DNA of 44,652 bases, taken from NCBI GenBank assembly GCA_029266495.1, contig JAQSWS010000080.1, forward strand, positions 1-44,652, written 5' to 3'. Under the pieces are notes generated by a model that saw nothing but the letters and a program-made list of their open reading frames with translations, searched no databases and was not told where the DNA came from. This stretch comes from Rariglobus sp. Lineage in GTDB: Bacteria > Verrucomicrobiota > Verrucomicrobiia > Opitutales > Opitutaceae. Every line of letters begins with the position of its first letter. The first letter of the stretch is position 1. This document shows positions 17,707 to 41,982 of the stretch, one piece after another. The position numbers and the translations under genes were made by a program.

Positions 17707-17722
17707 GGTTCCATTGGAAACT
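17707..17722. promoter_or_regulatory. Candidate operator GGTTCCATTGGAAACT
   Basis: A 16-bp near-palindrome (GGTTCCA-TT-GGAAACT) of the class found at 28230, 30339, 35692 and 41967. It lies 68 bp upstream of the minus-strand prepilin start and 190 bp upstream of the plus-strand gene at 17913, so it could control either or both. Confidence 0.6.
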
Positions 17723-17912
17723 GCCGGGACTGGTTTGGGGACTGGCGGGCTTTCGTCCTGCTAATTGCAGAAAGTTGTGGATCGCTGGTGAGCAAGCGAG
17801 CCGACATAGCGTTAACAATGAAAGCAGGTGGTCGTTTGCTCCAGCCGGCCTGCGGCAAGAGCCTTTTGCATGCCCCGGGCAGGCGAATGAATCGCCCGCC
17901 GTCCTCTTCCCC

Positions 17913-20234
17913 ATGCGTATTTTTTTCCTGCTGATCAGCCTTCTATTCTCCGCTTATGCCGTGGGCGGCGGGGTGGTCGACTTCCTTGTTTTTGGCGACA
18001 CTGCCTCGGAGCGCGTTCACGCGCTGGAAAGCGATCACGCGGAGAGTCTCCCGGGACTTCTGGGTGAATCCGCCCGTCGATTGCTGCCGCTCGATACCGG
18101 CAATGAATGGCGTGGCGGAACGATCGCTTTCACGCTCAAGGTCGACCCGGTGGCCCCCAACTACTTCACGCTGCGCCTGTCGGGTGACGATGCGGCGTCC
18201 AGCCGCCTCTTCCTTGTCGTCGAGGGTCTGATGATTGGCTATTTGCACCTCGGTGACATCGACCTGCTGGAACCGGGGGCGACCGAGCCGCAGTCTCCCG
18301 GGCGTTTTTTCTACCGCACGACACCGCTGCCGGAATCGCTCACCCGGGGAAAAAAAGAAATCCGCTGCGAGGTCCGCTCCACCGGTCCGATCTGGGCCTA
18401 TGGCACCACACTCGAGCGCTTTCAGAAGCCAATGACCGAACCGACCCGGGGGCTTTATCGGGTCTACGCCCACACGGAACCGGCGTTTGTTCCTCCCGCC
18501 GGGGAAAAACAGGGTAGTGCTCCTGCGGATACGATCCGTTCATCGCCCGGCCCCGAGATTCTTGAGAACGCGCAGGAGCGGGTGAACCGCGAGATCGCCA
18601 CGCGTCTCAACGATCGTCGCCCGCTCAATCAGATGCAGATGATGTTTCTGGCCGAGGCGTGGCACGTCCAGTGGACCGGCGCCTATCACAACGACACGGT
18701 CATCCGTCGCGTCGTCGAGTCGCTCGATGCCTTCGGCCTTGCCTGGCGCAAGAATCCCAAGCTCGTGCAAAACGACCCCGCCACGCCGAACCCCGACTGG
18801 TTCGGCGCGGGACCGGTGGGCGCCACGCTCCACTGGCTGGCCAGGCCGCTCGCGGCGCACCTCGATGGCCGTGTCGCCGGGGCCGGCGATTCGATTACGC
18901 GACGCAAGCTTCTGGCCCAGCTGTTTGTGGCCAGCCGCGAGTGGAATTCGCGCAGCCGCCGGCTCTATACCAACCAGTCGATGATCAAGGATCTTTACGG
19001 GATCTACTACGCCAACCGCGGCCTGCAGGTTGTTGCGCCCGCGCAAGCCTGGTCCGAGGAGAAGGCCCGCCGTTACCTCTACGAAGCCGTCGGGCTCCAG
19101 CCGTGGCTCGGCAGCGATCTGCCCGGCGGAGGCTCTGCGAAGACGGTTGGCGAGCACTACCTGCAACTCACCGCCAAGGGGCTCACCAAGGAACTCGGCT
19201 ACGTCGGCAGCTACGGCGAGGTGGTCGACTGGGTGACGAAGATCTATGAGGCGACCCGGCCTGCGTTCGATGAGGCGGGCGATCCGCGTCTGCGCGATCA
19301 GTTGGTCCGGATCACGCTTGCCCGCGCGCCCTTCCGGCATGCCGCGCAGGACGCCGAGGGGTATCGGGCGATGCGCATGGAGACCTTTGTCGGCTGGCGC
19401 GACACCAAGTATCCGGGTCTTGTCACCTATGGCCAGAAGCCCGCGCGCGATGCGTCCGCGCTCGATGCCGCCTACGCGACGCGCGATCCGCGCCTCCTCG
19501 GTTACGCGCAGCAGATGATCGCCGACCACCAGTTCTTCGCGAGTCTCGCAGGCACGATGGCCGAGAATAACAGCCTCCGCATCACCCACGGGTTGTTATA
19601 CGCTCCCGAGGCTTATCGCACGATCATCGCGCTTCCTCCCTCGCCCCATCGCATGCCGATGAGTGCCGGCGCGCCGGATTTTGTTTTCACTGACGAGGAG
19701 AACGGCGTGATCGCGCTCAAGCACGGCGACGAGATTCTTTACGCCTCGCTCTACTGGCGGGCGCGCCATGCGGTGAATTTCCTCGCGGCGGTGCATCACC
19801 TTACGCCGGCGTTCGAGCGCCAGGCGATCGTGCGGGAGGAGATTCGTTACACGCCTTCCGGTCACACCTATCGCCGCCCGGGCGCAGTGGTGTTCGGCTT
19901 TGGCAACGGTGGCACGCACCTCAAGTATCCGGGCGGCTCCCTGCCGGTCTCCGCGCACGCCGGCGAAGCGTTGCCCATCGCGGCCATTCCCGAAGGCATT
20001 CCCTACAAGATCGGCCAGGAAAGCGTGTTCGCGGGCAAGGGGGATTTCTACGTTCTTCACTATGGCGACTACCTCATCGCAATGAACACCACGGCCGACC
20101 GCTCGTTTGATTTCGAGGTGCCTTCCGCGTTCGCCAGCGCCCGTGACCTGGTCCGTCCCGACTCCTCGCCCCCGGGGCCGGGAAAACGCGCAGTCGCCGC
20201 CCGCAGCACGATCATTCTCCGCCGCGCCGAATAA
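17913..20234 (+). CDS. Large secreted protein of unknown family, possible polysaccharide lyase/hydrolase
   Basis: 773 residues from the ATG at 17913; this start gives the signal peptide MRIFFLLISLLFSAYAVGG. I do not recognise the family. Residues about 25-170 look like a beta-sandwich. The middle (about 200-560) is helix-rich with regularly spaced aromatic and basic residues (NQMQMMFLAEAWHVQWTGAY, SREWNSRSRRLYTNQSMIKD, YEAVGLQPWLG, HQFFASLAGTMAENNSLR), as in an alpha/alpha toroid. The last 200 residues are beta-rich (FGFGNGGTHLKYPGG, GDYLIAMNTTADRSFDFEVP). Toroid plus beta-sandwich is the layout of several polysaccharide lyases, but I cannot name catalytic residues. It is followed 18 bp later by the LamG-like gene and then GH43, so it likely belongs to that glycan-degrading unit. 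Confidence 0.6.
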   Translation: MRIFFLLISLLFSAYAVGGGVVDFLVFGDTASERVHALESDHAESLPGLLGESARRLLPLDTGNEWRGGTIAFTLKVDPVAPNYFTLRLSGDDAASSRLFLVVEGLMIGYLHLGDIDLLEPGATEPQSPGRFFYRTTPLPESLTRGKKEIRCEVRSTGPIWAYGTTLERFQKPMTEPTRGLYRVYAHTEPAFVPPAGEKQGSAPADTIRSSPGPEILENAQERVNREIATRLNDRRPLNQMQMMFLAEAWHVQWTGAYHNDTVIRRVVESLDAFGLAWRKNPKLVQNDPATPNPDWFGAGPVGATLHWLARPLAAHLDGRVAGAGDSITRRKLLAQLFVASREWNSRSRRLYTNQSMIKDLYGIYYANRGLQVVAPAQAWSEEKARRYLYEAVGLQPWLGSDLPGGGSAKTVGEHYLQLTAKGLTKELGYVGSYGEVVDWVTKIYEATRPAFDEAGDPRLRDQLVRITLARAPFRHAAQDAEGYRAMRMETFVGWRDTKYPGLVTYGQKPARDASALDAAYATRDPRLLGYAQQMIADHQFFASLAGTMAENNSLRITHGLLYAPEAYRTIIALPPSPHRMPMSAGAPDFVFTDEENGVIALKHGDEILYASLYWRARHAVNFLAAVHHLTPAFERQAIVREEIRYTPSGHTYRRPGAVVFGFGNGGTHLKYPGGSLPVSAHAGEALPIAAIPEGIPYKIGQESVFAGKGDFYVLHYGDYLIAMNTTADRSFDFEVPSAFASARDLVRPDSSPPGPGKRAVAARSTIILRRAE

Positions 20235-20252
20235 ACCCCTGCCTCATCGCTT

Positions 20253-21017
20253 ATGAAAAACCGCCTTCTTCTCACTCTTTTTGCCACCACGGCGCTCTTG
20301 CATGCGCAGCCCGTGAAATTCCCCATTTTTGAGGCGAACTTCAATGGTCCGGGGAAAGGCATCGAGCTGGTCAATGGCGCCGTGTTGGGCGCGCCCGGCT
20401 CTGGCGTATCCGGCAAGTCCGATGACCGCGCCTATGTCGGCACTCCCGCGAGCACGGAGCAGGAGCGCAACGGCCCGGTCGCGGTTGCGCGCAAACCGAT
20501 CGCGCCGAATGCGCTCTCCGTCTTCACCTGCACGTTTTGGTATTACCTCGATGAAACCGGACCGGTCCTGCAGGTCCCGCTGAGCACCGCCGGTATTTTG
20601 TTTTTGATGCACGACAAGGGCTTTGAACTGCGCATCGAAAACCAGCCCGAGGTGCCGCGCGCCTACGTGTTCACGCCCGGGCTCAGCGGCCCGTGTGCCG
20701 GCTGGCGCGATCGCAAGCAGTGGATCTTCGCCGCATTCTCCTGGGAGCAAAAAACCAACACCCTGATCGTTTTTCAGGGCACGCCGAAACAGCCGGTTGC
20801 CTACATGCGCGACATGACGGGCCCGATGCCGGCCAATGCCAGCATGCCGCGCGAAGATCTCGGTCGCGATCCCGAGACCATCGGCAATACCTCCCGCACT
20901 CTCGACCGTCCGCTTGCCGGAAAAATGGATAACGTTCGTTTCTACGACCGGGTGCTGGAGCAGCGGGAACTCGAAATCATCCGCAAGGCCGACCTCGCCA
21001 ACCAGCCGGTGAAGTAA
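20253..21017 (+). CDS. Secreted LamG/concanavalin-like protein
   Basis: 254 residues with the signal peptide MKNRLLLTLFATTALLHAQ. The remainder resembles a LamG-type jelly-roll: FEANFNGPGKGIELVNGAV at the start, an aromatic core (FTCTFWYYLDE, KQWIFAAFSWE) and the closing KMDNVRFYDRVLEQRELEIIR, which is typical of LamG_3 domains. These usually bind glycans or mediate protein contacts. It lies 18 bp after the large unknown gene and 54 bp before GH43, so it is likely cotranscribed with both. Confidence 0.75.
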   Translation: MKNRLLLTLFATTALLHAQPVKFPIFEANFNGPGKGIELVNGAVLGAPGSGVSGKSDDRAYVGTPASTEQERNGPVAVARKPIAPNALSVFTCTFWYYLDETGPVLQVPLSTAGILFLMHDKGFELRIENQPEVPRAYVFTPGLSGPCAGWRDRKQWIFAAFSWEQKTNTLIVFQGTPKQPVAYMRDMTGPMPANASMPREDLGRDPETIGNTSRTLDRPLAGKMDNVRFYDRVLEQRELEIIRKADLANQPVK

Positions 21018-21052
21018 TCTTGAGCCTTGATCATTTACCCAATCACACGCCC

Positions 21053-21071
21053 GGCACGGGCGTGGCTACAT
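21053..21071 (+). repeat. Half REP abutting the GH43 start codon
   Basis: GGCACGGGCGTGGCTACAT differs at one base from the outer half of the REPs flanking the RAYT gene (22766-22790 and 23320-23344). No inverted partner is present. Its last base lies directly before the GH43 ATG at 21072, so a REP end forms the immediate 5' leader of that gene. Confidence 0.7.
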
Positions 21072-22706
21072 ATGCTTCGTAATCCTGTTCTTCCCGGTTT
21101 TCGTCCCGACCCGTCGCTCTGCCGGGTTGGTGACGACTACTATCTCGCCACATCCACCTTCGAGTGGTTTCCCGGTGTCGCGCTGCATCACTCGCGCGAT
21201 CTCGTGAACTGGCGCCCGGTCGGGCACGCGCTCACCTGCCGCTCGCAACTGGACCTGCGCGGCGTGGCCGACTCCGCCGGATCCTGGGCGCCTTCGCTCA
21301 GCCATGCGGACGGGAAGTTCTGGCTGATTTACACCAACATTGTCACCACCGGCATGGGCCGGCCCTTCAAGGATCCGCATGTCTATCTCGTCACGGCCGG
21401 GCACATCGAGGGCCCGTGGTCCGAACCGGTGCATCTGGATTCGATCGGTTTTGATCCGTCGCTCTTCCACGATGACGACGGAAAGAAATGGCTGTGCAAC
21501 ATGCAGTGGGATTTCCGCCCCGGCCGGAGCCGCTTTGCCGGCATCGTGGTGCAGGAACTCGATCCCCAAACGCTGCAGTTGACCGGTCCCGTGCACGAGG
21601 TGCTGCGCAAGACGGAGATTCTGTGCGAAGGTCCGAATGTGTATAAATGGAATGGATACTACTACGTGATGCTGGCCGAGGGCGGAACCGGTTGGAACCA
21701 CGGCATCGCGATGGCGCGCGCGCGCGCCATCATGGGCCCCTATGAACTGGATCCCGAGGAAGCGGTGCTGACGACGCGACATGCGCCGGATCATCCGTTG
21801 CAAAAGGCAGGTCATGGCGAACTCGTGCAGACTCCCGGCGGCGAATGGTGGCTGGCCCACCTGTGCAGCCGCCCCGTGCGCACGGGTGCGGGGGTGAATC
21901 CCGGCTCGCCGGACAAATCCGCTTCCGCGGCCGCCCATGCGGGCGATCGCTGCATTCTCGGGCGGGAGACCGCGCTGCAACGGGTCGTCTGGTCCGCCGA
22001 TGGCTGGCTGCGCCTTGCCCATGGCGGCGTGCTGCCCGCCGTCGAGCTGCCGGCGCCCGCCGGGCTTGCGCCGCACCCGTGGCCGGCCGCGCCTGCGCGC
22101 GACACGTTTGCCGGACTCACGACGCTTGGCGCGCGCTGGCAGACGCTGCGCGTGCCGGCTGATCCCTCATGGTTGTCGTTCACGGCGCGCCCCGGCTGGC
22201 TGCGCCTTGCGGGACGCGAGTCGCCGCATTCGTTGCACGACCAGAGCCTCGTTGCGCGCCGGCTGGAGTCGGTCCGGGTAACCGCCACGACACGGATGGA
22301 GTTTGCGCCCACGCGCTTCACGCAGTTTGCCGGGCTTGTTTGCTGGTATGATACCCGCACGAACTATGCGTTGCGGGTGACGCATGACGAGAAGCTTGGG
22401 CGCGTGGTGCGCGTGCAGTTGAGCGACGATTTTGTTTATGCCGAGCCCGAGGATGCAAAGTTGGCGATCGCCGACTGGCCGGCGGCGGTGTGGCTGCGGG
22501 CGGAGATCGACCGGGCCGAGTTGCGGTTTTTCGCCTCGCCGGATGGCAAGGCGTGGACGCAGGTCGGTGGTGTCTTTGATGCGGGCAAGTTATCGGATGA
22601 TTACGGCACGGCGCTGCATTTCACGGGGACGATGATCGGGTTGAGTTGCCACGACGTCGCCGGTCAGCGCGCGCACGCGGATTTTGAGTGGTTCGAGCTG
22701 GGGTGA
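21072..22706 (+). CDS. GH43-family glycosidase (beta-xylosidase / arabinofuranosidase type)
   Basis: 544 residues from the ATG at 21072. An upstream ATG at 21027 would extend into the half REP and lacks family features. The five-bladed propeller signatures are MLRNPVLPGFRPDPSLCRVG (general base Asp13), GFDPSLFHDDDG (pKa-modulating Asp128) and ILCEGPNVYKWNGYYY (general acid Glu186). The C-terminal 200 residues form the beta-sandwich seen in subfamily 11/12-like beta-xylosidases (RDTFAG, FAGLVCWYDTRTNYALRVTHDE). There is no signal peptide, so it is probably cytoplasmic, cleaving xylo- or arabino-oligosaccharides. A short Ala/Gly-rich insert lies near residue 280. The stop is 6 bp before the REPtron. 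Confidence 0.9.
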   Translation: MLRNPVLPGFRPDPSLCRVGDDYYLATSTFEWFPGVALHHSRDLVNWRPVGHALTCRSQLDLRGVADSAGSWAPSLSHADGKFWLIYTNIVTTGMGRPFKDPHVYLVTAGHIEGPWSEPVHLDSIGFDPSLFHDDDGKKWLCNMQWDFRPGRSRFAGIVVQELDPQTLQLTGPVHEVLRKTEILCEGPNVYKWNGYYYVMLAEGGTGWNHGIAMARARAIMGPYELDPEEAVLTTRHAPDHPLQKAGHGELVQTPGGEWWLAHLCSRPVRTGAGVNPGSPDKSASAAAHAGDRCILGRETALQRVVWSADGWLRLAHGGVLPAVELPAPAGLAPHPWPAAPARDTFAGLTTLGARWQTLRVPADPSWLSFTARPGWLRLAGRESPHSLHDQSLVARRLESVRVTATTRMEFAPTRFTQFAGLVCWYDTRTNYALRVTHDEKLGRVVRVQLSDDFVYAEPEDAKLAIADWPAAVWLRAEIDRAELRFFASPDGKAWTQVGGVFDAGKLSDDYGTALHFTGTMIGLSCHDVAGQRAHADFEWFELG

Positions 22707-22711
22707 GTGTA

Positions 22712-22736
22712 TGTAGCCACGGCCGTGCCGGCCGTG
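22712..22736 (+). repeat. REP, left arm of pair 1
   Basis: Begins TGTAGCCACGGCCGTGCCGG; perfect inverted repeat of 22766-22790. GC-rich and internally palindromic, so each arm can also fold alone. Confidence 0.9.
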
Positions 22737-22765
22737 GGTTTGGGGAGTGCGAAGGGTTTTCGGAG

Positions 22766-22790
22766 CACGGCCGGCACGGCCGTGGCTACA
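22766..22790 (-). repeat. REP, right arm of pair 1
   Basis: Ends GGCACGGCCGTGGCTACA. It abuts the RAYT stop codon (22791-22793). Confidence 0.9.
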
Positions 22791-23270
22791 TCAGAAGCGG
22801 AGGGGGACGATTTCGCCTTGGCAGGGCCAGTCTTCGGGACGCTGGCAGAGGCCGGCTCGCACGGGATTTTGGCGAACGTAGTCCCATTTTTGAGAATAGG
22901 AATCCGCGGTGCGCATGACGTGGTCGAAAAAGCCTTCCTGCCAGAAGGGGCGGGGAACTCCGGCTGCCCCCAATCCTACGCCAAGCTGGCGCTTGAGCTG
23001 GCCGACCCAATTGGTCAGCGAGGCGCCAGTGACGGGCAGGCAAACGAAGAGGTGCGCGTGGTCGGGCATAAGCACATAACGTCCGACGGCGATGGCGTGT
23101 CCGGCATAGGCACGCTGACAGAAGGTTAGAAATGCGGCATGCAGCGCGGGCGTGGCCAGCACCGGTCGGCGGCCATGCGTGTTGAAGGTGACAAAATAGA
23201 ACGGACGGACGTTCTGAAAAAGTTCGATGCGCGGTGGGCGGCGAGGGAACCGGGACTCAGCTTCGGGCAT
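22791..23270 (-). CDS. rayT: REP-associated tyrosine transposase (RAYT, Y1/TnpA_REP family)
   Basis: 159 residues from the ATG at 23270; a GTG at 23288 would lie inside the REP. It is a Y1-transposase (HUH endonuclease) relative of IS200/IS605 TnpA. YVLMPDHAHLFVC carries the HUH-type metal-binding His pair (HAH, 71-73). SYSQKWDYVRQNPVRAGL carries the conserved Tyr (Y131, or Y125) and the family signature RQNPVRAGL; FWQEGFFDHV is also typical. The enzyme would nick single-stranded REP hairpins and spread or maintain them. The gene looks intact, and both flanks carry inverted REPs, supporting a functional pairing. Its stop codon touches REP pair 1. Confidence 0.93.
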   Translation of the reverse strand: MPEAESRFPRRPPRIELFQNVRPFYFVTFNTHGRRPVLATPALHAAFLTFCQRAYAGHAIAVGRYVLMPDHAHLFVCLPVTGASLTNWVGQLKRQLGVGLGAAGVPRPFWQEGFFDHVMRTADSYSQKWDYVRQNPVRAGLCQRPEDWPCQGEIVPLRF

Positions 23271-23279
23271 GTCCGAGGG

Positions 23280-23304
23280 TGTAGCCACGGCTGTGCCAGC
23301 CGTG
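23280..23304 (+). repeat. REP, left arm of pair 2
   Basis: Begins TGTAGCCACGGCTGTGCCAG. It differs from pair 1 left arm at two positions and lies 9 bp upstream of the RAYT start. Confidence 0.9.
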
Positions 23305-23319
23305 GGATTATCGGGAAAG

Positions 23320-23344
23320 CACGGCCGACACGGCCGTGGCTACA
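23320..23344 (-). repeat. REP, right arm of pair 2
   Basis: Ends ACACGGCCGTGGCTACA. It overlaps the last codons of the convergent esterase-fusion gene, whose TAG stop (23340-23342) is part of the REP. Confidence 0.9.
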
Positions 23345-26300
23345 TGGAGACGCGGAGACGGAGGAAGCGGCGAGCGGATGTGGAGAGGAGCTGGGTGTCG
23401 GGAACCGTGACCAAGCCGGCGACGTTGTCCGCGCCGGTGCTGGTCCAGATGTCGGCCCAGGTGGTGGTGAGGTTGTCCGTCGCCTGGACCGTGTAGAGAA
23501 GCGCGGGGTCGGCGATGCGGTTAAACGTGAGTTGAAGGCGGGTTTCGGTCGCGGCGGCCGCGGGGTTAAGGTCGGCGTCGGGCTCGGTCGGATTTCCGCC
23601 GAGGGCGTATTCGAGGAGGTTGTTGAGGCCGTCGCCGTCGGGATCGGCGGTCGTGTCGGAGCTGCCGGCCGGTGTGACCGGCACGCCGTCGGCGTCGTAG
23701 GAACCGAACTGGTCGAACCTCCATTTTTGGAAGGCGTTTTGAAAGATCCAGAAAGTGCGGTAAACGGGGGTGGCAGACTGCAGGACACCGGGTTTTCCCC
23801 ATTGCCAGGCGCCGACGATGACGCGCAGCGGAAACTTTGAGCCGGCGGGGATCGTATCCGGAACCAGAATACCGCTGTCGATCTCGTCGTTACGGTAGGG
23901 GCCGGAGACCATCCAGTATTGCACGGGATATCCGGCACCGGCGCTGGACGTGGCGGCGAGGGAAAGGACGGGCAGCGCGTCAGGGGTTTGATTGGGGATC
24001 GACGTGAAGGTCAGGGTCTGGGTCGAGCCACCGCTGTAGCCGGTCAGGTTGACCGGCACGGAGGTGCTGAGCTGGATGGGGCGGTCGGCTTCGCGGTAGC
24101 TGGTGTCGCCGGGGTGCCAGGCGATGACGAAGGGCTCCCACGGCTGGCCGGTCTTGATGATGCTGCCGCGGTCGAACCAGACGCGGAAGGTATCCACACC
24201 GGTCTGCTTGAGGGCGCCGCTGCCGTTGACCTTGAGGAGGATCGAGCCGGAGGCGATGCCGACGGGGGCGCCGTGGAAGAGCTTGGGGATGGGCGACTGG
24301 TTGAGCGAGGCGGTGCGCAGTTGAAACGTGACGCCATCGGCCTGAAGGGTGGCCGAGTGGCTGATGGTGCCGGCGCTATTCGACTGGGTGGCGAGGTCGG
24401 GCAGGGTGGTGGCGTTGCTGAAGGCGGAGATGAGCTGGGGCTTTTTGGCGAAACCCGTGTTCATGACGTCGCAGGCGGCCCGGGCGGTCTCCTGGTCGAG
24501 AAACCAGTAGGCACGGAGCGGATCCTTGCCGGCGGCGATCCAGTCGGCATAGGCCACGGGCGTGGCGTTACCGGAACCAAGGCTCGTGACGTCGACGAGG
24601 TAGCCGGAGGAAGCCGAAAGGCTGTTGAGGGTGGGGGCGGCTGTCGTGGTCCAGTTGGTTGGGATGCGGTGATAGGCGGCGCGCCGGATGAAGGTCGCGA
24701 TGGGAGCGGACTGGGTTTCGGAGTATTGATAGTGTCCGGTGCCGGGCTGGACGAATTCGGAGACGAGGCGATCGGTGCCGCCTGAGCGCAGGCCGCGGGC
24801 GCTCGGGGCGTCGCCGACCTCCCAGGTGTTGCCCCACTGGCTGATCTCCTGCCATTCGGAGGCGACATGCAGGACGGGCAGTCCGTTGGGCACGGAACCC
24901 GCGAAGGTGCCTTTGTAGGGGAGGAGGGCGAACACGCGCGAACCGAGCGTCGTCGAGGTGTGGACGGCGCGGGTCCAGACGAACGGGCTGGCGGCGGAGT
25001 GTCCGGCGAGGAGAATCGGTGCGTATTGGAGTTCCGAATACCCGGACTCGACGCCGAGTCGGCGGAGAATCTCGGCGAGCTCGGCGGCGGCCTGCTCGGA
25101 GCCGCTGGTGAAGGCGACCCCCGTGGCGGGGTTGATCTCCAGGGGGGTGTAGTTGTGGGGGTCGAGGTCGAGGGCGGTGGTGTGCTGGCCGGAGGTGTAG
25201 TTGCCCACGCCGCTGGCGGTCCAGGTCTTGGCGTCGCCGGGTGAGATGAAGACAATGCCGAGGCCGGCGTCGGTGCAGGCCTGGCGGATGGTGGGGTCCT
25301 CGAACATCGGTTTTTCGAGCATGTTGTGGAGGCCGACGATCACGCCTTGCAGGCGGGTGGCCCCGGGAGGAACCCAGAGGTAGGCGCGGCGCATCGGATC
25401 GGCGGCGCGGCTCGAATAGATGGCGGTGACGGGGTTGGAGTATTGGTAGACCGAGCGCGCGGTGGCGGTGAAGCCGGGGGCGGCGGGCGTGGCGGTGGCG
25501 CCGGAAGAGACGGCGCTCTCGCCGATGGCGTTCACGGCGCTTACCGTGTAAGTGTAGGCGGTGCCGTTGACGACGGAGGTGTCGGCGTAGGAATAGACGG
25601 GAGCGGTGACGGCGGCGAGAAAGGTGCCGCCGCGATGGACACGATAGGAGGTGGCGGTGGCGGCGCGGGACCAGTTGAGGGCGACCTGGCGGTTGCCGCC
25701 GGAGGCGGTGAGCCCGGCGGGCGTGGCGGGTGCGGCGGTGGGTGACGGGTTGGCGTCGTTGCTGAGGATTTGAAAACCGGCGATCTTCAGGCGCTGGGTG
25801 GAGTCGCCCATGTTGGTGGCGGCGAGGGTGGCGGTGAGCGTGCCGCTGAGGCCGGTGAAGCGGACATAATTGCCCGGTTGCACGGAGGAGCCGGAGGTGT
25901 TTACCGAGTCGGTGGAACGGACGTAGCCGGTGCCGTCGGCGGCGGGATTGCCCGCGCCGCCGCGGAGGGCGAAAGTGGTGCCGTTGGCCGAGACGACGCC
26001 GCCACGCGCGGAGCCGCCGTCGTAGACGTAGACCACCAGGTCATAGGACGTGTAGGGAATTCCGGATACGTTCAGGGTGGAGGCGGTGCCGTTGTATTGG
26101 TCGAAAACCGAGGAGTAGAGATTGAGATCGTTGGATGCGGGGCCGACGGTGACGGCGTCGGAACCAAGCTTGAGGGTGCCGTTGCCGGTGCCGGCGGTGA
26201 AGGTGACGCCCAGGCCGGAGACGGGGTCGCCGAGGTGGTCGACGAGGGTGGCGAGGGTGACGCTTTCGCCGGTGGCGGCGGGGCCGACGAGGTTGTTCCA

Positions 26301-28130: not shown

Positions 28131-28229
28131 GACGGATAACGAAGAGGGGAAGAGATACGGCCCGGGGCCGTTATCGTTTGGGGTGAAGGCAGTCTGCGCG
28201 CGCGGGGCACCGGGCAAAAGAGGCGGATT

Positions 28230-28245
28230 GGTTAACGTGGTAACC
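28230..28245. promoter_or_regulatory. Candidate operator GGTTAACGTGGTAACC
   Basis: 16-bp palindrome (GGTTA...TAACC arms) 100 bp upstream of the esterase-fusion start, in the same class as the sites at 17707, 30339, 35692 and 41967. Confidence 0.65.
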
Positions 28246-28273
28246 GTGGCGGCGGACACACGTTTTCGGGCAC

Positions 28274-28301: not shown

Positions 28302-28324
28302 AGGGGGGGAGTGGCTTCGCCGGA

Positions 28325-30338: not shown

Positions 30339-30354
30339 AGTTTCAGTGGAAACT
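30339..30354. promoter_or_regulatory. Candidate operator AGTTTCAGTGGAAACT
   Basis: Perfect 6-bp arms AGTTTC/GAAACT around AGTG, 89 bp upstream of the PEP-CTERM start. It shares the GTGG-W-AAC core with the 28230 site and belongs to the five-site class. Confidence 0.68.
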
Positions 30355-32219: not shown

Positions 32220-32221
32220 GG

Positions 32222-32800
32222 CTCGAGCACCCCGGCGAGCCAGTCGGCGACATTGCGGGCGACGATGAGCGCGACCTCGGAGCCGGCGAGGCGGTGGGCG
32301 TCGCGCAGGCCGGCAAGGAGTTTGTGCAGCGTGTAGAAGGGAACCCAGACGCCGTTCAGGGAGAAAGGCGTGGCCTCGATGCGGCCTTCGTTCAACGCGA
32401 CGAAGGCGGCCTTGGAGACGGGAAGGACGTAGCCGTCACCATTGGCGGCCTGGCAGTCGGCGAGCCCCGCGACAAGGTGATCGATCCGCGGGAGAATCCA
32501 GGCGTCACCGGTGGCGGCGTGAAGGTGGCCGAGGGCGGAGAGATAGTGGCCGAGCGAGTGACCGCTGATGTCGCGCGACTCCCAGCCGCCATAGCGTTCG
32601 GCGATCGCCGGGAGGCCGGCCTGGGCGCGGAAAGGTGCGAGCAGGCGGTCGGGATCGATGGCTTCGAGGTGGCGCGCATGAATGTCCTGCCGCTCCTTGA
32701 GCGGGCCATCGAGCAGGCGCACGGCGGAGAGGGGCAGGGGATTCGCGACGCGGGCAACGCGACGGAACCGAGCGGAGTCGATGACGGTGAGCTGGGACAT
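32222..32800 (-). pseudogene. GH127/DUF1680 N-terminal part, separated by a frameshift
   Basis: From the ATG at 32800, 193 residues match the DUF1680 N-terminus: LSAVRLLDGPLKERQDIHAR, GGWESRDISGHSLGHYLSAL, LNGVWVPFYTLHKLLAGLRD and the final VADWLAGVLE. After 32222 the frame leaves the family and becomes low-complexity. The family then normally has about 25 residues including an E-[FH]-G-G-M-N-E motif before TGDxRYL. Here VLE is followed after only 2 nt by DTGDDRYL in another frame. This fits a small deletion plus frameshift, or an assembly collapse. Confidence 0.78.
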
Positions 32801-32899
32801 GGGAGGGAGGAATGGGACGGCTGGCGATCGGCTTGGGCGGGCTGGCGTTGACTCGTCCGGGTTCGTCGCCGGCCGCCGGGGAGGGCGGCCGGACTTTAT

Positions 32900-34552: not shown

Positions 34553-34575
34553 GGGGAGGGGTCGCGCGGTGGCGT

Positions 34576-35622: not shown

Positions 35623-35691
35623 CGTGGGCGCGGGGGGAGCGCGTCGGGATGAACTCTGTCCGCCATGCGGCCCCCGGTAAAACGGGCCGTT

Positions 35692-35707
35692 GGTTTCATA
35701 GGTAACT
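35692..35707. promoter_or_regulatory. Candidate operator GGTTTCATAGGTAACT
   Basis: 16-bp near-palindrome of the five-site class, 70 bp upstream of the start of dehydrogenase copy 1 and just outside the beta-helix coding end (35730). It suggests an internal promoter within the operon. Confidence 0.6.
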
Positions 35708-35729
35708 AGAGCAGGGCAACCGGTGGCGG

Positions 35730-37163
35730 TCAGCGGGCGACGCCCGTTTTGGGGAGATTCCACGTGCCGGGGCTGGCGCGGAGGCCGGTGTCGGGAAGCT
35801 CGCGTCCGGCGGTCTCGATTTTCGAGCCCTCAAGCGTATCGCTGGTAATGACGGGCGAGGTGGTGATGGTGTTGATCAACGTGATGTTACGGGTGGGGGC
35901 GGGGCGGATGGGGGAGGCCATCTCGGCATGGTCGGGCATGCCGAAGCCGAACATGATCGGCAGGGCGATTGCGGGTTTTTCGTGGGCCTGCCGGGTGAGT
36001 TTCACGCGATGGTTCTGGCCGGCGATCGTCGCGAGTGCATGGACGGTGGCGCCGGGGGCGGGGCCGTCGCCGGTGAGCTCGAGCTCCACGTCGGAGCCGA
36101 GGCCGCCGCGGAGGTAGAGAAGGGGGCCGTGCGCGATGTCGCCGCGGCTGTCGCGCACGACCGTGTGGGAACCGATGAGGTAGCCGCGTTCGCAGCCGAG
36201 GGCGTTGCCACCGATGATTTCGGTTTTGACGGTCGCGTCGTCGCGGGCGCCGATTTCGAAACCGGCGCGGGTGTTGATCGCGGTGCAGTTGACCAGGGTG
36301 ACGCTGCCGGCACCGCCGTAGGTGCGGAAGCCGTCCTCGACGAGGCTCTTCATGTAGCCCGGCGTGATCACGTAGCGGCCATCGCGGTTTTCATAGACGG
36401 AGCGGAAGGCGAGGTCGAAGGCAGGACCGGAGGTGTCGCGGAGCATGTCGGAGGTCGAGCGCATGACGCCCTCGGCGTAGCAGTCCTCAAGGCGGATGCC
36501 GCCGCCGTTTTGGATATAGAAGCAGTGGCCGAAGGCACGGCTGATCACGCGGGTGCGGCGGACGAGGGTGTTGGCCCCGAGGATCTGGATGCCGCTTTGT
36601 TTTTGAATGCCCAGCAGATTGGGGCCGCCCTTGCCGAAGAGATCGCCGTAGCCGTAAGGGTGGGAGCCGTGGACGTGGACGGTGAAGTTTTCGAGCGTGT
36701 TACCGGTGCCGGCGACGGAGAGGGTGTTGCCGCCGCTGCCGCGCTGGGCGCCGACCTGACGGATCGTGAGGCCGTTGAAGGTGTTGTTGTCGCCGGCAAT
36801 GATGAGGCAACGGATGTAGCTTCGACCGGGGAGCCTGGAATAGAGGGCGGTGTCGATTTCGAAGACGACGCCGGTGAAGTCGAACCGGTTTCCGTTGCCG
36901 GTGAAGGTGAACATGGGCACGGGCGGACGGCTTTGCTTGCGGTCCACCCCGGCGGCAATGTCGGCGAGCACGGCGGGAGTGAGGTAGTCGGCGAGCGGAT
37001 ACACGCCCGGCGCCATGCGGACAGTCTGGTTGTCGGCAGCGGCGACGCGGGCGAGGTCGGCCAGGGAGGCAACGGTCACGGGGGCGGTGGTTTCCGGGGC
37101 CGTGGACGCTGCGAAGAGAGGGAGGCCGAGCAGGAAGGCGGCGATAAGAGGAAGAAGGCGCAT
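35730..37163 (-). CDS. Secreted parallel beta-helix protein (pectate-lyase-like fold)
   Basis: 477 residues from the ATG at 37163, which gives the signal peptide MRLLPLIAAFLLGLPLFAAS. The body has the stacked short-coil pattern of right-handed beta-helices: NNTFNGLTIRQVGAQRGSGG, GNTLENFTVHVHGSHPYGYG, NTLVRRTRVISRAFGHCFYI, GIRLEDCYAEGVMRST, SVTLVNCTAINTRAGFEIG. This fold is shared by polysaccharide lyases and GH28. I cannot identify a catalytic triad with confidence, and its closest family is not clear to me. It is likely a periplasmic or extracellular pectin- or uronate-active enzyme of the locus. Operon gene between GH36 (upstream, 58 bp) and the dehydrogenase. Confidence 0.75.
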   Translation of the reverse strand: MRLLPLIAAFLLGLPLFAASTAPETTAPVTVASLADLARVAAADNQTVRMAPGVYPLADYLTPAVLADIAAGVDRKQSRPPVPMFTFTGNGNRFDFTGVVFEIDTALYSRLPGRSYIRCLIIAGDNNTFNGLTIRQVGAQRGSGGNTLSVAGTGNTLENFTVHVHGSHPYGYGDLFGKGGPNLLGIQKQSGIQILGANTLVRRTRVISRAFGHCFYIQNGGGIRLEDCYAEGVMRSTSDMLRDTSGPAFDLAFRSVYENRDGRYVITPGYMKSLVEDGFRTYGGAGSVTLVNCTAINTRAGFEIGARDDATVKTEIIGGNALGCERGYLIGSHTVVRDSRGDIAHGPLLYLRGGLGSDVELELTGDGPAPGATVHALATIAGQNHRVKLTRQAHEKPAIALPIMFGFGMPDHAEMASPIRPAPTRNITLINTITTSPVITSDTLEGSKIETAGRELPDTGLRASPGTWNLPKTGVAR

Positions 37164-37221
37164 GATGGGGATGGACGGGGCGGTTGGATAAACGTGCGGC
37201 GGTGTCTCGGCCGGCACACGT

Positions 37222-39384
37222 TTATTGTTTTAGATGGACGATGCGGGCGGAGAAATCGCCGGGGAAGGAGAGGTGGAGCGAGTGATCTTTGATCTGGGAT
37301 GCGACTGGATGGGTTTCCGTGAACTCCTCGGCGATGCGCCAGTTGCCCGGGGGCAGGGGAATCGTGACAATCGCGGGCGCGCTGGCAAACCCGTGCACGA
37401 CCACCAGTGCTTCGCGGAGATTGACCGAGGTGCGCATGAGCGCCTGCCAGCCGTGCGGATGGCGCCAGCTTGCGCCGAGTTCGCGATGGAGGCGGCTGAT
37501 GCCATGTTTGATCACGGGGGCGACGCGACCGTAGAGGGCCTGCGCGTCGAGGGCGATCTGCCATTGAACGGGCGAGAGCGCGGCGACATCGCCGGACAGG
37601 CACATGCGACCGAGGAAGGTGGCGGCGAGGCTGTAGATAAGGCGGCGTTCGGTGTCCGTGGGTTTGAGCACGGCCCAGATCTGGCTCTGGCGCGGGAGCA
37701 TCAGGCGATGGAGGTTGGCGGCGATGACCGGGATTTCGACGAGTTCGTGCGCGTCGGAGAACGAGGCCATCGCGGTGCGTGCAAGCATCGACGGCTCGAG
37801 CCGGTGTCCGCCGGAGGCGCAGTTTTCGATGACGAGGCCGGGCAGGCGCTCGCGCAGCCGGTCCAGAAAACGATACGTGGCGAGCACCTGGCGGCGGAGG
37901 CCCTCGCCGAGTCCGTCCGGGTGGTCGGCGCCGAGGCCGAGGGTTTCGTTGTAGTCGATTTTTAAATACTCGAAGCCGCAGCGTTCGAGGCGATCGATGA
38001 CGTTTTTCTCCAGGTAGGAGAAGGCCCATGGGTCGTTGAGGTCCCAGAAACGACGGTGACGCACGGTGACGGGTAGGCCGTCGCGCTTCAGGAGGTGATC
38101 GGTGAGAGAGAAGGCGGTGGAGGTGTCGCCGACGGTTTCCATTTCGAACCAGAGGCCGGGGATGAGACCGCGCTCACGAATGGCGGCGGCGGTGGCTTCG
38201 ATGCCTTGGGGGAAGAGCTTCGGGCTGGGGATCCAATCGCCATGGCCGCGACCCCAATCGGAGGTCTCGGTTTTATACCAGCCGGCGTCGATCACGAGGG
38301 TGCTGGCGGGCGAGCCCTGCAGGCGGTCGGCGAGCGCGGTGACTTTGGAGTGGGACGGATCGCCCCAGGTGGTGCACCATTCATTGAAGATGATCGGCAG
38401 CGAGTGCTCGCGGGCCGGATGGGTGTCGGCGGCGCGGTGCTGGAGCGCGGTGAGGCGGTCGCAGGCGGCATCGAGATCGCCGGCGGCGACCGCGAGGTGG
38501 GCGGCGGGGGCATCGAGCCGTTCGCCGGGGGCGAGGGTTTTGGTCCAGTGGCCGAATTCGCGGTCGGCGAGACCGCCGGAGAGGCAGGCGTCGTCGTTCT
38601 GGCGGGTGACCTCCAGCTGCCAGGAACCGGCCCAGCACAGTTGTGCGGCCCAGGTGACGCCGGCCCCGGTGTCTTCCAAGGCGACAAACGGAAACCAGCG
38701 GCGGACGGGCATGGTGCCCACCTGGCCAAAGCGTTCGCTGAAGAGGCCGGCGCCGGACCAGGAACGTTCGAGGTGAAGCTCTTCAAGCGTGCGTGTTTCG
38801 AGGCGGCCCTCGGCGCTCCAGGCGGAGCGAAAGCGGTGGATGCGCATCCGGCCCGGTGCGTCGGCGCGGGCAAAAGGCGTGAGGCCGCCGAGAGAAAAAC
38901 TGGTGAGCAATTCCAAGGTGACAGGCGTGGCGCCGTCGTTGATGAAACTGGATTCGATGACGAAGGCGGCGTCGCCTTCGTGCCAGGAAAGGCGGTGCTC
39001 GAGACGATGGCCGGTGGCGCGGTCGAGCAGGCGGGTGAGGACCGAGTGGCGGCCGGCGACAAACCGGTGTTCCTGGCGTTCGATGCGGAAGGCGGCGTTG
39101 GCCGGGGCGGAGCGCAGAGTGTGGCCTTGGGCGAAGGCGCCGGGGTAGCTGTCCCCGATGCGTTTCACATGGACGAGCGGGTCGGGAACCGAGGCGGGCG
39201 GGGCGGAGGGCTCGGGGCCGGAATCGATGTAGAATTCGCCGGCGAGCGTGGCTCTTCGTTCGACGAGTTCGCCGAGCTTCGCGGTCGGGACGAGTTGAAG
39301 GGTGATCGCGCCGGTGGCGGGATCGTGGAGGTAGCGGACGGTCGTGTCGGCGACGGTCCAGGTGGAGAGAACGAGGAGAGGCAT
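37222..39384 (-). CDS. GH36 alpha-galactosidase
   Basis: 720 residues, the usual family length. N-terminal super-beta-sandwich, then a (beta/alpha)8 barrel with IIFNEWCTTWGDPSH, LVIDAGWYKT, GLWFEMETVGDTS, FEYLKIDYNETLG (nucleophile Asp477) and ENCASGGHRLEPSMLARTA followed by SFSDAHE (acid/base Asp544). No signal peptide, so it is cytoplasmic. It hydrolyses terminal alpha-galactosides such as raffinose-type or galactomannan side chains after import. It lies 15 bp downstream of the GPH transporter gene, consistent with import followed by hydrolysis. Confidence 0.93.
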   Translation of the reverse strand: MPLLVLSTWTVADTTVRYLHDPATGAITLQLVPTAKLGELVERRATLAGEFYIDSGPEPSAPPASVPDPLVHVKRIGDSYPGAFAQGHTLRSAPANAAFRIERQEHRFVAGRHSVLTRLLDRATGHRLEHRLSWHEGDAAFVIESSFINDGATPVTLELLTSFSLGGLTPFARADAPGRMRIHRFRSAWSAEGRLETRTLEELHLERSWSGAGLFSERFGQVGTMPVRRWFPFVALEDTGAGVTWAAQLCWAGSWQLEVTRQNDDACLSGGLADREFGHWTKTLAPGERLDAPAAHLAVAAGDLDAACDRLTALQHRAADTHPAREHSLPIIFNEWCTTWGDPSHSKVTALADRLQGSPASTLVIDAGWYKTETSDWGRGHGDWIPSPKLFPQGIEATAAAIRERGLIPGLWFEMETVGDTSTAFSLTDHLLKRDGLPVTVRHRRFWDLNDPWAFSYLEKNVIDRLERCGFEYLKIDYNETLGLGADHPDGLGEGLRRQVLATYRFLDRLRERLPGLVIENCASGGHRLEPSMLARTAMASFSDAHELVEIPVIAANLHRLMLPRQSQIWAVLKPTDTERRLIYSLAATFLGRMCLSGDVAALSPVQWQIALDAQALYGRVAPVIKHGISRLHRELGASWRHPHGWQALMRTSVNLREALVVVHGFASAPAIVTIPLPPGNWRIAEEFTETHPVASQIKDHSLHLSFPGDFSARIVHLKQ

Positions 39385-39399
39385 TCAGGCGTTTCTGTT

Positions 39400-40821
39400 T
39401 TACGTGGCGACGGGGATTTCCGGGGCGGTTTCGGGTTTCACCTGATGGCGCGCGTCGAGCCGGCGGCGGACCTCCATCATGGCCGCCTCGGTGAGCGGAA
39501 AACGCAGGGCGAGGATGAAATAGCCGGCCGTGAAAAAGATGTTGGGCAGCACGGCGAGCCAGAAGAGTTTTTTGAGCACCTGCCCGGGCTGGACGGCGAG
39601 GGTGGTATTGAGACCCGACCAGACGACGAGGTAGCCCACGAGCAGTGCGCACAGGGAAATCTCAATCTTCTGCATGAAGCCCATCACGGCGGTGAAAAGG
39701 CCTTCGCGCCGCTGTCCGCTCTCCAACTCGTCGACGTCGCAGATGTCGGGCATGATGGCGTTGGCGATGGTGTTGCTCAGGGCCAGCAGTGTCACGAGCA
39801 TCAGGGACGGAAAGAGCATCCAGTAGGGGTGACTCGGGGAGTAGGCGAAAGGTGTGATGAGGGCGGCGCCCAGGCTGGTGCTCGCGCCCAGAATGAGGCC
39901 GCCCTTCTTTCCCAGACAACGACTGACGGGCTTGATCAGCGGGACCATGGCAAAGCCCCACACGGTGCCCACCAGGCCGCCGATGCCGGTGATCTGCGTG
40001 GCCATGCTCTTGTCGCCGTTGCACACGTAGTAGATGCCGACGAAGAAGAGGAGACCGCCGGCGGCGCGCTCGCCCATGGTCTGGCAGAGCTTCATCAGCA
40101 TCAGGCTTAAAAAGGGCCGGTTGCGGATCGTGGCCTTGATCGCCGGAAGAATGCGGATGTGTTCCTTCCCCGGATTGGCATGGGTGAAACGTTCGCGGCA
40201 GACCCGTGTCGTCACCAGCGCGGAGGCGATCGCGATCACCCCGACGCCGGCGGCGATCCAGCGGATGCCGTTGATCTCGCCGCCAAAGAAGGGACGCAGC
40301 GCGAACCAGTAGACCCAACTGTTGCCGAGGAGCACGACCGAGAGAAAGAGGCTGCCGATGGCGGAGACTTTGGAGCGTTCGTGGTAGTCGTCGGTGAGCT
40401 CATAGCCGATCGCATTCCACGACATGGAATAGAGGCCCCACGAACAGTAGAAGAGCGTGCCCACCACGAGCAGGTAGGTGAGTTGGGCCGTTGAGCTCCA
40501 CGAACGGTCGGCCCACCAGAGGGCGGCGAGCGCGAAGGCGGCGAGAATCGAGCCGAGCACGAGGAACGGCTTGCGACGGCCCCAGCGCGTGTGGGTGTTG
40601 TCGGAAAGATGGCCGAGCAGGGGATCGGTGATGCCGTCGATCAATCGGGGCAGCATGATGGCCCAGCTCACCAACGCGGCGTTCAGCGAAAATCCGATGG
40701 TGAAAATGGCGGTCGCCTGTCCGTAGGTGCAGATCAGGATGTGATTGGCGATGCCGCCGGCGCCCCAAGCCCAGACTTGACGCGGGGGAGCCGAGTAGGG
40801 TTTGGAGGGATGGACACTCAT
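39400..40821 (-). CDS. GPH-family sugar:cation symporter (MelB-like MFS)
   Basis: 473 residues with about 12 predicted membrane helices. GPH signatures are present: RLIDGITDPLLGHLSDNTHTRWGRRKPFL in the N-terminal half (the Asp and cytoplasmic RWGRRRP-type loop of MelB relatives) and DICDVDELESGQRREGLFTAVMGF in the C-terminal half. It would import oligosaccharides or glycosides with Na+ or H+ across the inner membrane. Position directly before GH36 suggests a galactoside substrate. It follows dehydrogenase copy 2 by 75 bp, with no terminator between. Confidence 0.93.
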   Translation of the reverse strand: MSVHPSKPYSAPPRQVWAWGAGGIANHILICTYGQATAIFTIGFSLNAALVSWAIMLPRLIDGITDPLLGHLSDNTHTRWGRRKPFLVLGSILAAFALAALWWADRSWSSTAQLTYLLVVGTLFYCSWGLYSMSWNAIGYELTDDYHERSKVSAIGSLFLSVVLLGNSWVYWFALRPFFGGEINGIRWIAAGVGVIAIASALVTTRVCRERFTHANPGKEHIRILPAIKATIRNRPFLSLMLMKLCQTMGERAAGGLLFFVGIYYVCNGDKSMATQITGIGGLVGTVWGFAMVPLIKPVSRCLGKKGGLILGASTSLGAALITPFAYSPSHPYWMLFPSLMLVTLLALSNTIANAIMPDICDVDELESGQRREGLFTAVMGFMQKIEISLCALLVGYLVVWSGLNTTLAVQPGQVLKKLFWLAVLPNIFFTAGYFILALRFPLTEAAMMEVRRRLDARHQVKPETAPEIPVAT

Positions 40822-40896
40822 GGGGTCGGGGTGGGCATGAAGGGGAGCGGAGTGGAGCGGGCGGGTCGCGGAAGGAGGTGAAAGGAACCGGAGAGG

Positions 40897-41907
40897 TCAG
40901 GCTGGCTGGCGCGGGCTGGTCCCAAGGATTTCCCAATGGAGTGGATGTCCGGCGATAAAACGTTCGAACTCGTCGACCATCGCATCGCCCATGCGCAGGC
41001 ATTCGCCGCCGAGGGAGCCGGCGATGTGCGGGGTCAGCACGACATTGGGCAGGTCGTAGAGCAGGGAACGTTTCGCCGGAGGCTCGGGGGAGGTGACGTC
41101 GAGCACGGCCTGGAGGTCGGGGCGGGCGGCCAGGACGGCAATCATTTCCTCCTCGTTCACCAGTTCACCGCGGGCGGTGTTGATAAACGTGGACATGGGC
41201 CGCATGCGTTTGAACAAGGCGCCGTCGATGGATTCGTAGCTTTCCGGCAGCAGAGGCGCATGGAGGGAGACGACGTCGCATTCGGAAAAAAGTCCGGCAA
41301 GCGACACCGGTTGCACGCCTTCCCGAGCGGCCTCTTCCGCAGTCAGCGCCGGGTCGTGAACGAGCACCTGCAGATCGTAGGGTCGCAGACGCTCGCGAAC
41401 GATGCGGGCCACGGTGCCGTAGGAGACGAGCCCGACCTTGGCGCGATAGGCGCCGGTGACGGGGCGTTCGATGGGAAACGTGCGATGCTCCCGGACCAGG
41501 CGCGCATAGTGCCAGAAATGTTTCAGGCCGAAGAGCACCGCGGAGACGGTGTATTCGGCCACGGGAATGGCGTTGATGGCCCGGGCCGACATGACGCGGA
41601 CGCCGCGCCGCCACAAGGCGGGCGTGGTGAAATAGTCGACTGAACCGGAGGCGCAGAAAACCGCGCGCAGCCTGGGGGCTTTTTCGAGGAACGCCTCGTC
41701 CATCACCGGCGCGCCCCAGCTGGAAAATAAAAACTCGGTGTCGCGGAGCGAGCGGGTGTGGCGTTTCCACATCGACCCGGGAATCACCGTGTCCGCCAGG
41801 GCGGCGTGGCACCGGATGCGTGCGACCGCCTCGGCGCTGAAGATTTCGGGGAAGGCCTGGGGGGAAAGGGCAAAGACGGCTTTGGGGATGGCGTTGCGTC
41901 GGGTCAC
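40897..41907 (-). CDS. D-2-hydroxyacid dehydrogenase family protein (copy 2), operon head
   Basis: 336 residues. NAD-binding KVGLVSYGTVARIVRERL, catalytic Arg in INTARGELVN, Glu in DVTSPEPPA and His in LTPHIAGSLGGECLRMG. It shares long motifs with copy 1 (TEFLFSSWGAP against TEFIFSGWKAP; PVAEYTVSAVLFGLKHFW against PVAEYTVSVCILALKQFW), so the pair arose by duplication and then diverged. Cytoplasmic oxidoreductase, probably for sugar-derived 2-oxoacids. First gene of the catabolic operon, divergent from the LacI gene with a candidate operator in the 100-bp gap. Confidence 0.88.
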   Translation of the reverse strand: MTRRNAIPKAVFALSPQAFPEIFSAEAVARIRCHAALADTVIPGSMWKRHTRSLRDTEFLFSSWGAPVMDEAFLEKAPRLRAVFCASGSVDYFTTPALWRRGVRVMSARAINAIPVAEYTVSAVLFGLKHFWHYARLVREHRTFPIERPVTGAYRAKVGLVSYGTVARIVRERLRPYDLQVLVHDPALTAEEAAREGVQPVSLAGLFSECDVVSLHAPLLPESYESIDGALFKRMRPMSTFINTARGELVNEEEMIAVLAARPDLQAVLDVTSPEPPAKRSLLYDLPNVVLTPHIAGSLGGECLRMGDAMVDEFERFIAGHPLHWEILGTSPRQPA

Positions 41908-41966
41908 GATGCGGAGGGGTTGCGGGCACTTTGCGCGCGGAGCGGGCCACTCGGAACGTGTTTACT

Positions 41967-41982
41967 ACTTCCACTGGTAACT
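41967..41982. promoter_or_regulatory. Candidate operator ACTTCCACTGGTAACT between operon and lacI-type gene
   Basis: Member of the five-site class with a degenerate left arm. It lies 60 bp upstream of dehydrogenase copy 2 and 26 bp upstream of the LacI gene, the normal position for an operator controlling both divergent units. Confidence 0.6.

Follow-up and report, generated by a model that had tools for sequence, protein, structure and literature searches.

Within a stretch of 44,652 nucleotides from Rariglobus sp. (Opitutaceae; assembly GCA_029266495.1, contig JAQSWS010000080.1, positions 1 to 44,652 of the forward strand; hereafter "the window", i.e., the whole stretch), one 16-base-pair (bp) sequence recurs ahead of genes for sugar breakdown, large repeat proteins, and a pseudopilin, which raises the question whether these promoters answer to one regulator and, if so, to which one and in which sense. 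The most probable answer, given a probability of about 0.7, is that the sequence is the operator of the LacI-type regulator encoded from 42008, that its six copies belong to one local regulon, and that the regulator acts as an activator. The motif has defined places in the window and is conserved together with orthologs of this regulator and with the types of its target genes. The putative operators and the regulator are as follows (scores in bits under a matrix of 37 sites from outside the window):

17707–17722, minus strand: operator, 24.4 bits, upstream of a prepilin gene
17810–17825, plus strand: sixth operator, 20.8 bits (the lowest of the six), upstream of the operon starting at 17913
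28230–28245, minus strand: operator, 22.6 bits (the weakest in leave-one-out scans), upstream of the gene for a repeat/fn3/esterase-like fusion protein
30339–30354, minus strand: operator, 22.6 bits, upstream of the gene for a PEP-CTERM-type repeat protein; TA replaces TT at the −35 position
35692–35707, minus strand: operator, 21.6 bits, upstream of genes for a second 2-hydroxyacid dehydrogenase, an esterase-like protein, and a glycoside hydrolase (GH) of family GH127
41967–41982, minus strand: operator, 23.1 bits, between the catabolic operon and the divergent LacI-type gene
42008–43063, plus strand: LacI-type regulator (PF00356 helix-turn-helix and PF13377), proposed to bind these operators

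Five of the copies had been listed in a preliminary description of this DNA. Checked in the window, its five 16-mers were exact matches at 17707, 28230, 30339, 35692, and 41967, and columns 3–4 (TT), 10–11 (GG), and 13–15 (AAC) were constant across them, as it had said. All five were intergenic, with gaps of 67, 99, 88, 69, and 59 bp, respectively, to minus-strand start codons (start codons in the window were assigned by rule), in agreement with the described 60–100 bp. The last site indeed lies between the catabolic operon and its divergent LacI-type gene, and has counterparts in four relatives (L051, L052, L033, and L053; L labels are used for loci, G labels for genomes). The shared motif is real, while the term palindrome needed qualification, as the 16-mers have 8, 12, 12, 10, and 8 self-complementary positions, respectively, and are imperfect; moreover, the sixth site at 17810 had been missed, as had the position of 17707 in a divergent promoter region. 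The divergent two-operator arrangement of 17707 and 17810 was also present in L111. The operator has an even length of 16 bp, inside the 16–22 bp of palindromic LacI-family operators, and a GTTAC-N4-GTAAC dyad, is strongly asymmetric, and is oriented toward its target gene. Its central pair is not the CG typical of the LacI family, position 8 being A in 41 and position 9 being G in 31 of 43 sites.

Because the five sites had been picked for their likeness, which makes similarity statistics among them circular, tests independent of the window were sought. A de novo search was performed on intergenic DNA of the L051, L052, L053, and L033 loci, with the window excluded and gene limits set by hand, and repeats were weighted (perfect repeat, 2; one mismatch, 1). 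GTTAC-N4-GTAAC came first among the gapped inverted repeats with a weighted score of 7, versus 0.16 for the same repeat in shuffles. Some repeat reached a score of 7 in 36 of 200 shuffles, the most frequent leaders there having GC-only or AT-only arms; repeats whose arms mix GC and AT did so in 0 of 200. With a matrix built from the 14 intergenic de novo matches, the window sites 17707, 28230, 30339, 35692, and 41967 ranked 4, 1, 2, 3, and 6 of 44,637 positions, and this ranking is the test that is free of the window. In leave-one-out scans, the same sites ranked 4, 27, 4, 4, and 5 of 89,304 in the window.

Under the 37-site matrix, which is only a partly independent test since most of its sites were first located with matrices seeded by window sites, the six operators scored 20.8–24.4 bits and the seventh-best place in the window 11.5 bits. 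At a threshold of at least 17 bits, this matrix gave a mean of 0.057 matches per shuffled window (n = 300 shuffles, maximum 2) and 0 matches in 217 kb of paralogous LacI loci. The matrix of the original five sites gave 21 matches of at least 16 bits in 277 kb of ortholog loci (including one site counted double in overlapping loci) versus 1 in the 217 kb of paralogous LacI loci; conservation at orthologous loci, which the preliminary description had proposed to examine, was hence found, and target types recurred as well. The operator followed by TTG occurred 107 times versus 40 times for the reversed pattern in 17 genomes bearing an ortholog of the regulator, and 48 versus 41 times in 16 genomes without one, i.e., the pattern is clearly in excess only in genomes with the ortholog.

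A genome-wide regulon of carbohydrate-active enzymes and PEP-CTERM proteins, for which the preliminary description had suggested a scan, was not borne out, as pattern search gave no convincing further sites. The loose palindrome pattern occurred at 18 places in the whole genome, 4 of them in the window, compared to 20 for the reversed-pattern control. With the extended pattern, both 0-mismatch places and 5 of the 15 places with at most one mismatch were in the window. Among 20 off-window stretches scored by matrix, the best candidates (20.2 and 19.4 bits, the former close to the 20.8 bits of the sixth window site) fell inside long coding frames, and an 18.8-bit site was at the beginning of a short gene with no evident link; these candidates were rejected as members. 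Because no convincing operator was found outside the window in this genome by pattern searches and in the 20 scored stretches, a genome-wide regulon was rejected, and the regulon looks local.

When the first 18 sites were oriented by their target genes, T was present at position 27 in 17 and at position 28 in 14 of them. Stretches of relatives fetched by pattern were mostly chosen with a pattern that includes TTG and are no test of a −35 element. Likewise, 24 added sites were hand-picked from the match list after the −35 letters were visible; left out were duplicate loci (L074 12782, L076), palindromic sites in their weaker orientation, and matches that were weak or inside genes (L075 11351 and 4383; L079 5571, 6325, and 19799; L080 12362; L089 938). 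A selection-free count was available from 17 sites of at least 18 bits in later-fetched loci, taken without regard to their −35 letters: 11 of them had TT at the fixed position and 8 had TTG, with about 0.6 TT expected from base composition. Of the 43 sites, 32 had TT at position 27; for the −10 pattern NANNNT, position 50 was the commonest (12 sites; next best position, 7) and was the best of 42 positions in each half-set. These counts suggest that the layout is usually the operator, 10 bp, a TT(G) −35 element, a 17-bp spacer, and a weak −10 element, with the operator centre near −53 if the −10 is correctly placed. The deduced −35 begins 10 bp downstream of the operator, which overlaps neither it nor the deduced −10. 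At operator 17707, for instance, TTGAAC (17691–17696) is followed by a −10-like GATATT (17668–17673); operator 17810 is followed by TTGCTC (17836–17841), and an operator in L039 that resembles those of the window is followed by TTGGCA at the same spacing. Readings of the downstream T's as a −35 overlapping the operator, or as Bacteroidota-type, sigma-54, or extracytoplasmic function sigma factor promoters, were dropped after the larger set gave TTG, 17 bp, and a weak −10.

The 42008 protein matched PF00356 at residues 11–56 with 32.4 bits (cut-off 27) and the C-terminal periplasmic-binding-protein-like sensor domain PF13377 with 41.0 bits (cut-off 26.5). It is not a GntR or UriR equivalog in NCBIfam (28.0–29.5 bits versus cut-offs of 400–550). 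Scanning contigs of one genome per species yielded orthologs in L051, L052, and L053 (76, 76, and 58% identity, all Opitutaceae) and a more distant one in L033 (47–48%). In a family-wide search of 252 genomes, 19 had matches at an E-value of 1e-80 or better, and the regulators of the four window-clade genomes (G000, which is the window's genome, G151, G153, and G156) formed one group with full support (100/100). Because 12 other genomes of the genus had no ortholog at 1e-80, acquisition of the cassette as one unit, or else its loss in other genomes, is probable.

An identical variant of the site, AATTACCAGTGTAAAC, was observed at L080 4736, L082 4687, L084 3941, and L085 4899, within about 80 bp of the regulator's aligned start; in these four genomes it has no TT at the −35 position, and it is perhaps an autoregulatory site. 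In L075 (G151), a weaker operator copy of 18.6 bits at about 4383–4926 precedes a second LacI-type gene, so that a regulatory cascade is possible. The window itself has a second LacI-type gene (9596–10663, plus strand) with a different recognition helix and a promoter region without a matrix match. It was rejected as the binder, as 20 relatives' loci searched with its protein contained no full-length ortholog; in 16 of them the matches were the 42008 ortholog at 25–32% identity, and L075 added an 86-amino-acid (aa) stretch at 44%.

Taken as a mechanism, the six operators would unite most operons between 16860 and 41907 in one local regulon covering sugar transport and breakdown, two paralogous 2-hydroxyacid dehydrogenases, hydrolase-type proteins, two large repeat proteins of PEP-CTERM type, and a pseudopilin-like protein. 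The 42008 protein would bind each operator as a dimer and, less certainly than it binds, would activate from one helical turn upstream of the −35 element, with a glycan-derived sugar as the presumed effector. Activation is favoured because the operator is upstream of −35, where CcpA activates. According to the accessible part of PMC3463425, activation by CcpA is associated in Bacillus with cre boxes upstream of −35 and depends on the helix face. The CcpA-activated promoters of Bacillus (ackA, pta, ilvB; same part of PMC3463425) resemble those of the window in having a LacI-family protein and a site upstream of −35, and differ in that CcpA is global and uses a protein corepressor, whereas the window regulator is local and its activating role is deduced from sequence.

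The same regulon could also be governed by a classical repressor that is bound without sugar and released on induction, in which case the −35 spacing would reflect an effect on polymerase docking. Repression is the usual mode of LacI-family proteins. In the accessible part of PMC4052901, the majority of them are described as DNA-binding in the ligand-free state, and local regulation of sugar use is the role of nearly 90% of those studied; at the B. subtilis lev operon, repression is exerted from an upstream cre site (PMC3463425, as far as available), and the −10 assignment is weak. Set against this, the operator is clear of the deduced −35 and −10, 10 bp upstream, with spacing and orientation constant in most sites, so repression is regarded as a serious but distinctly less probable mode. 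Far less probable is that the motif serves another regulator or a sigma factor, with the 42008 protein as a bystander. The asymmetry of the motif and its lack of the central CG of LacI operators would suit such a reading, as would the second LacI-type gene at 9596–10663 and further regulators in relatives' loci (AraC-like in L033, judged by eye; a sigma-70 factor in L051), but loci retrieved via the 42008 ortholog carry the motif while paralogous LacI loci do not, and the GTTAC-N4-GTAAC dyad fits a dimeric helix-turn-helix protein. That the likeness is a chance one selected by eye is close to negligible; the circular choice of the first five sites and the absence of a genome-wide excess of the loose palindrome speak for it, whereas the window-free motif ranks the same places first, and shuffles or control DNA never reach six such sites.

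Several observations weigh against the preferred reading, i.e., activation of one local regulon by the 42008 protein. Two ortholog loci, L077 and L086, have no site of at least 13 bits (LacI gene at a contig edge), and the best site in L089 reaches only 14.2 bits. The relatives' 37 sites came largely from window-seeded matrices. Six of the 17 later-locus sites have no TT, five of these being within 130 bp of the regulator's start, as are nine sites in all, of which four do have TT; window site 30339 also has no TT at the −35 position. The −10 is weak, with a mean of 2.07 of 6 matches to TATAAT. In 48 non-orthologous LacI promoter regions, there was no general fixed spacing (9 at distance 18.5, no peak), and the fixed operator-to-(−35) spacing was hence rejected as holding generally for the family's LacI genes. 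Among targets, the cytidylyltransferase-like gene faced by the 17.6-bit site in G266 is out of place in the regulon, and among 15 stretches fetched mostly via pattern matches, L121 and L124 have no plausible target and L125 has no site. The preliminary description had placed the sugar operon, the esterase fusion, the PEP-CTERM protein, and the prepilin under the 42008 regulator; enrichment of the motif at ortholog loci and the recurrence of target types (2-hydroxyacid dehydrogenase, repeat/PEP-CTERM-type, prepilin) speak for this claim, and binding itself is what we infer from them.

The genes that would make up the regulon are the following:

40897–41907, minus strand: D-2-hydroxyacid dehydrogenase, first gene of the catabolic operon; orthologs also carry the operator
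39400–40821, minus strand: MFS_2-type sugar transporter; orthologs in three relatives have their own site (23.4, 18.1, and 18.0 bits)
37222–39384, minus strand: GH36-type glycoside hydrolase (melibiase)
35730–37163, minus strand: probably secreted beta-helix-like protein without a Pfam match; the L051 ortholog matches Beta_helix
34576–35622, minus strand: second, paralogous D-2-hydroxyacid dehydrogenase
32900–34556, minus strand: esterase-like protein, named by eye from its likeness to the "esterase fusion"; orthologs in L051 and L052
30492–32800, minus strand: GH127-type beta-L-arabinofuranosidase, split across two overlapping reading frames
28325–30250, minus strand: repeat protein with a PEP-CTERM-like C-terminus (IPEPST...GFAVYRRRAI, by eye); autotransporter-type repeat model
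23340–28130, minus strand: repeat/fn3/esterase-like fusion protein
16860–17639, minus strand: prepilin/pseudopilin-like protein; TIGR02532 25.8 bits (cut-off 16.3), PF07963 28.8 bits (cut-off 21.2)
17913–20234, plus strand: probably secreted 773-aa protein; homologs in two relatives (72 and 35% identity) carry the operator too
20253–21017, plus strand: LamG-domain protein; homologs in two relatives (46–48%) carry the operator too
21027–22706, plus strand: GH43 glycoside hydrolase; the L122 ortholog has an operator 275 bp before its called start

Operator 41967 heads the first dehydrogenase, the MFS_2 transporter, the GH36-type hydrolase, and the beta-helix-like protein (whose L116 ortholog bears its own operator); operator 35692 heads the second dehydrogenase, the esterase-like protein, and GH127; and operator 17810 heads the divergent run of 773-aa protein, LamG protein, and GH43. 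That genes farther downstream belong to the same transcript was assumed from order and spacing. The two dehydrogenases are 49% identical, each with an operator copy ahead of it, and the one scanned (40897–41907) meets no equivalog cut-off. Pfam and PDB-sequence searches gave no match for the esterase-like protein. The relative of the split GH127 gene in L051 is a single intact 790-aa frame, so that the split is either a decayed gene or an assembly error. In the 28325–30250 protein, the C-terminal PEP motif, hydrophobic stretch, and basic end were recognised by eye, with no NCBIfam PEP-CTERM model matching at an E-value of 0.001, whereas the N-terminal cleavage/methylation motif of the prepilin is above cut-off. 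At 22706–23345, GC-rich repeats of the gtagccacggccgtgccggccgtgg type flank a Y1-transposase-like frame (22791–23288; 20.9 bits, under the cut-off of 23), an arrangement resembling those of repetitive extragenic palindromes (REP) and their associated transposases (RAYT).

In relatives, dehydrogenase genes follow the operator in L051 (two), L052, L075, L080, L082, L084, L085, L033, and L116. Prepilins do so in L052 of G156 (34% identity, 248 aa) and L111 of G151 (54%, 74 aa), i.e., an operator-bearing prepilin was found in three of the four window-clade genomes, the fourth (G153) being a draft of which two contigs were examined. In G151, the prepilin and a homolog of the 773-aa protein are back to back with one operator in each direction, matching the window. 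Proteins of PEP-CTERM/autotransporter-repeat type follow the operator in L075 and L074/L052. Further genes with the operator are relatives of the LamG, GH43, and MFS_2 proteins (weakly, at 18 bits, in two of three MFS_2 cases) and, in G151, one for a protein with an alginate-lyase-type domain.

Outside the window's clade, TonB-dependent receptors were found behind the operator in 11 of 15 ortholog-bearing genomes (G020, with 362 bp between operator and receptor start, G094, G112, G119, G125, G139, G144, G167, G181, G251, and G265). The receptor calls were above the Pfam cut-off in L033, L081, L084, and L085, just under it in L079, L083, and L116, and by likeness only in L078, L080, L117, and L082 (the last at 22–28%). 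Other targets in the 15 genomes were SSF symporters, GH88, GH43, a sulfatase, and a heparinase-like gene. Within the DNA fetched, no prepilin was recognised among the targets of these 15 genomes and no TonB-dependent receptor among those of the window's clade. Receptor domains (PF00593) numbered 16, 9, 5, and 16 in G000, G151, G153, and G156, respectively, versus 15 to at least 52 in 12 other ortholog-bearing genomes, and prepilin motifs (PF07963) 39, 46, 36, and 33 versus 13 to 34; these ranges overlap slightly, the outside genomes are mostly larger, and several are incomplete drafts. Receptors in the same slot point to glycan capture or uptake rather than to the "surface remodelling" of the preliminary description. 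A swap of the regulatory slot is offered tentatively, as a possibility clearly short of even odds: the operator would drive TonB-dependent receptors in sister lineages and a pseudopilin plus giant repeat/PEP-CTERM-type proteins in the pseudopilin-rich, receptor-poor window clade, where these may form a TonB-independent apparatus for glycan capture or import that is switched on by a LacI-family activator.

Prepilin genes were also observed near LacI-type genes beyond this locus. Random placement would put at most 2.3 of the 39 prepilin genes of G000 within 3 kb of a LacI-type sensor-domain gene, and 10 were counted there; for the 35 of G010, the expectation was 1.8 and the count 12. On contig C1 of G010, 10 of 23 were near such genes, a count matched in 2 of 2000 circular shifts. 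In Verruconatronum alginivorum, likewise of the Verrucomicrobiota, grown on alginate, a pseudopilin was over-expressed along with polysaccharide-use genes and alginate clusters, and the genome has 67 homologs of a cluster pseudopilin (accessible part of PMC13274419). This induction and the clustering of prepilin and LacI-sensor genes are in line with a role of pseudopilins in glycan use. The case differs from the window in family and substrate; the accessible part of that paper describes no shared operator, and the term "laci" occurs 0 times in PMC13274419.

A local LacI-family regulon is of a known kind, while its architecture and content are unusual. In the part of Ravcheev et al. (2014, PMC4052901) available, 1251 of 1303 LacI-family motifs are even, and a central CG is present for 1173 transcription factors. 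The local sugar-responsive regulons described there resemble that of the window in adjoining the regulator, in 16-bp even palindromes, in sugar-use genes, and in sites mostly 30–140 bp upstream of starts; they contrast with the window's operator, which is strongly asymmetric without a central CG, and with its inclusion of a pseudopilin and PEP-CTERM-type proteins. The term "verrucomicrobi" occurs 0 times in PMC4052901. Among the nearest NCBIfam models of the 42008 protein is that of the E. coli gluconate regulator GntR (helix-turn-helix region, 28.0–28.7 bits), whose targets differ and whose equivalog cut-offs (400–433 bits) are far above these scores. The half-site of the E. coli GntR operator resembles TTACC.

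For this LacI-type clade of Verrucomicrobiota, the motif offers a candidate operator, none having been found in searches of open-licence PMC papers by title and abstract beginning. From its fixed spacing to the −35 element, activation is predicted, whereas LacI-type proteins are by default read as repressors. Through the shared operator, a defined sugar pathway would be linked to one prepilin and two large repeat proteins. The two fully counted genomes of the genus (G000 and G010) have 49 and 36 LacI-type sensor-domain genes and 39 and 35 prepilin-type genes, respectively, and pseudopilins and repeat proteins acting as part of glycan use may be a reason for such numbers.

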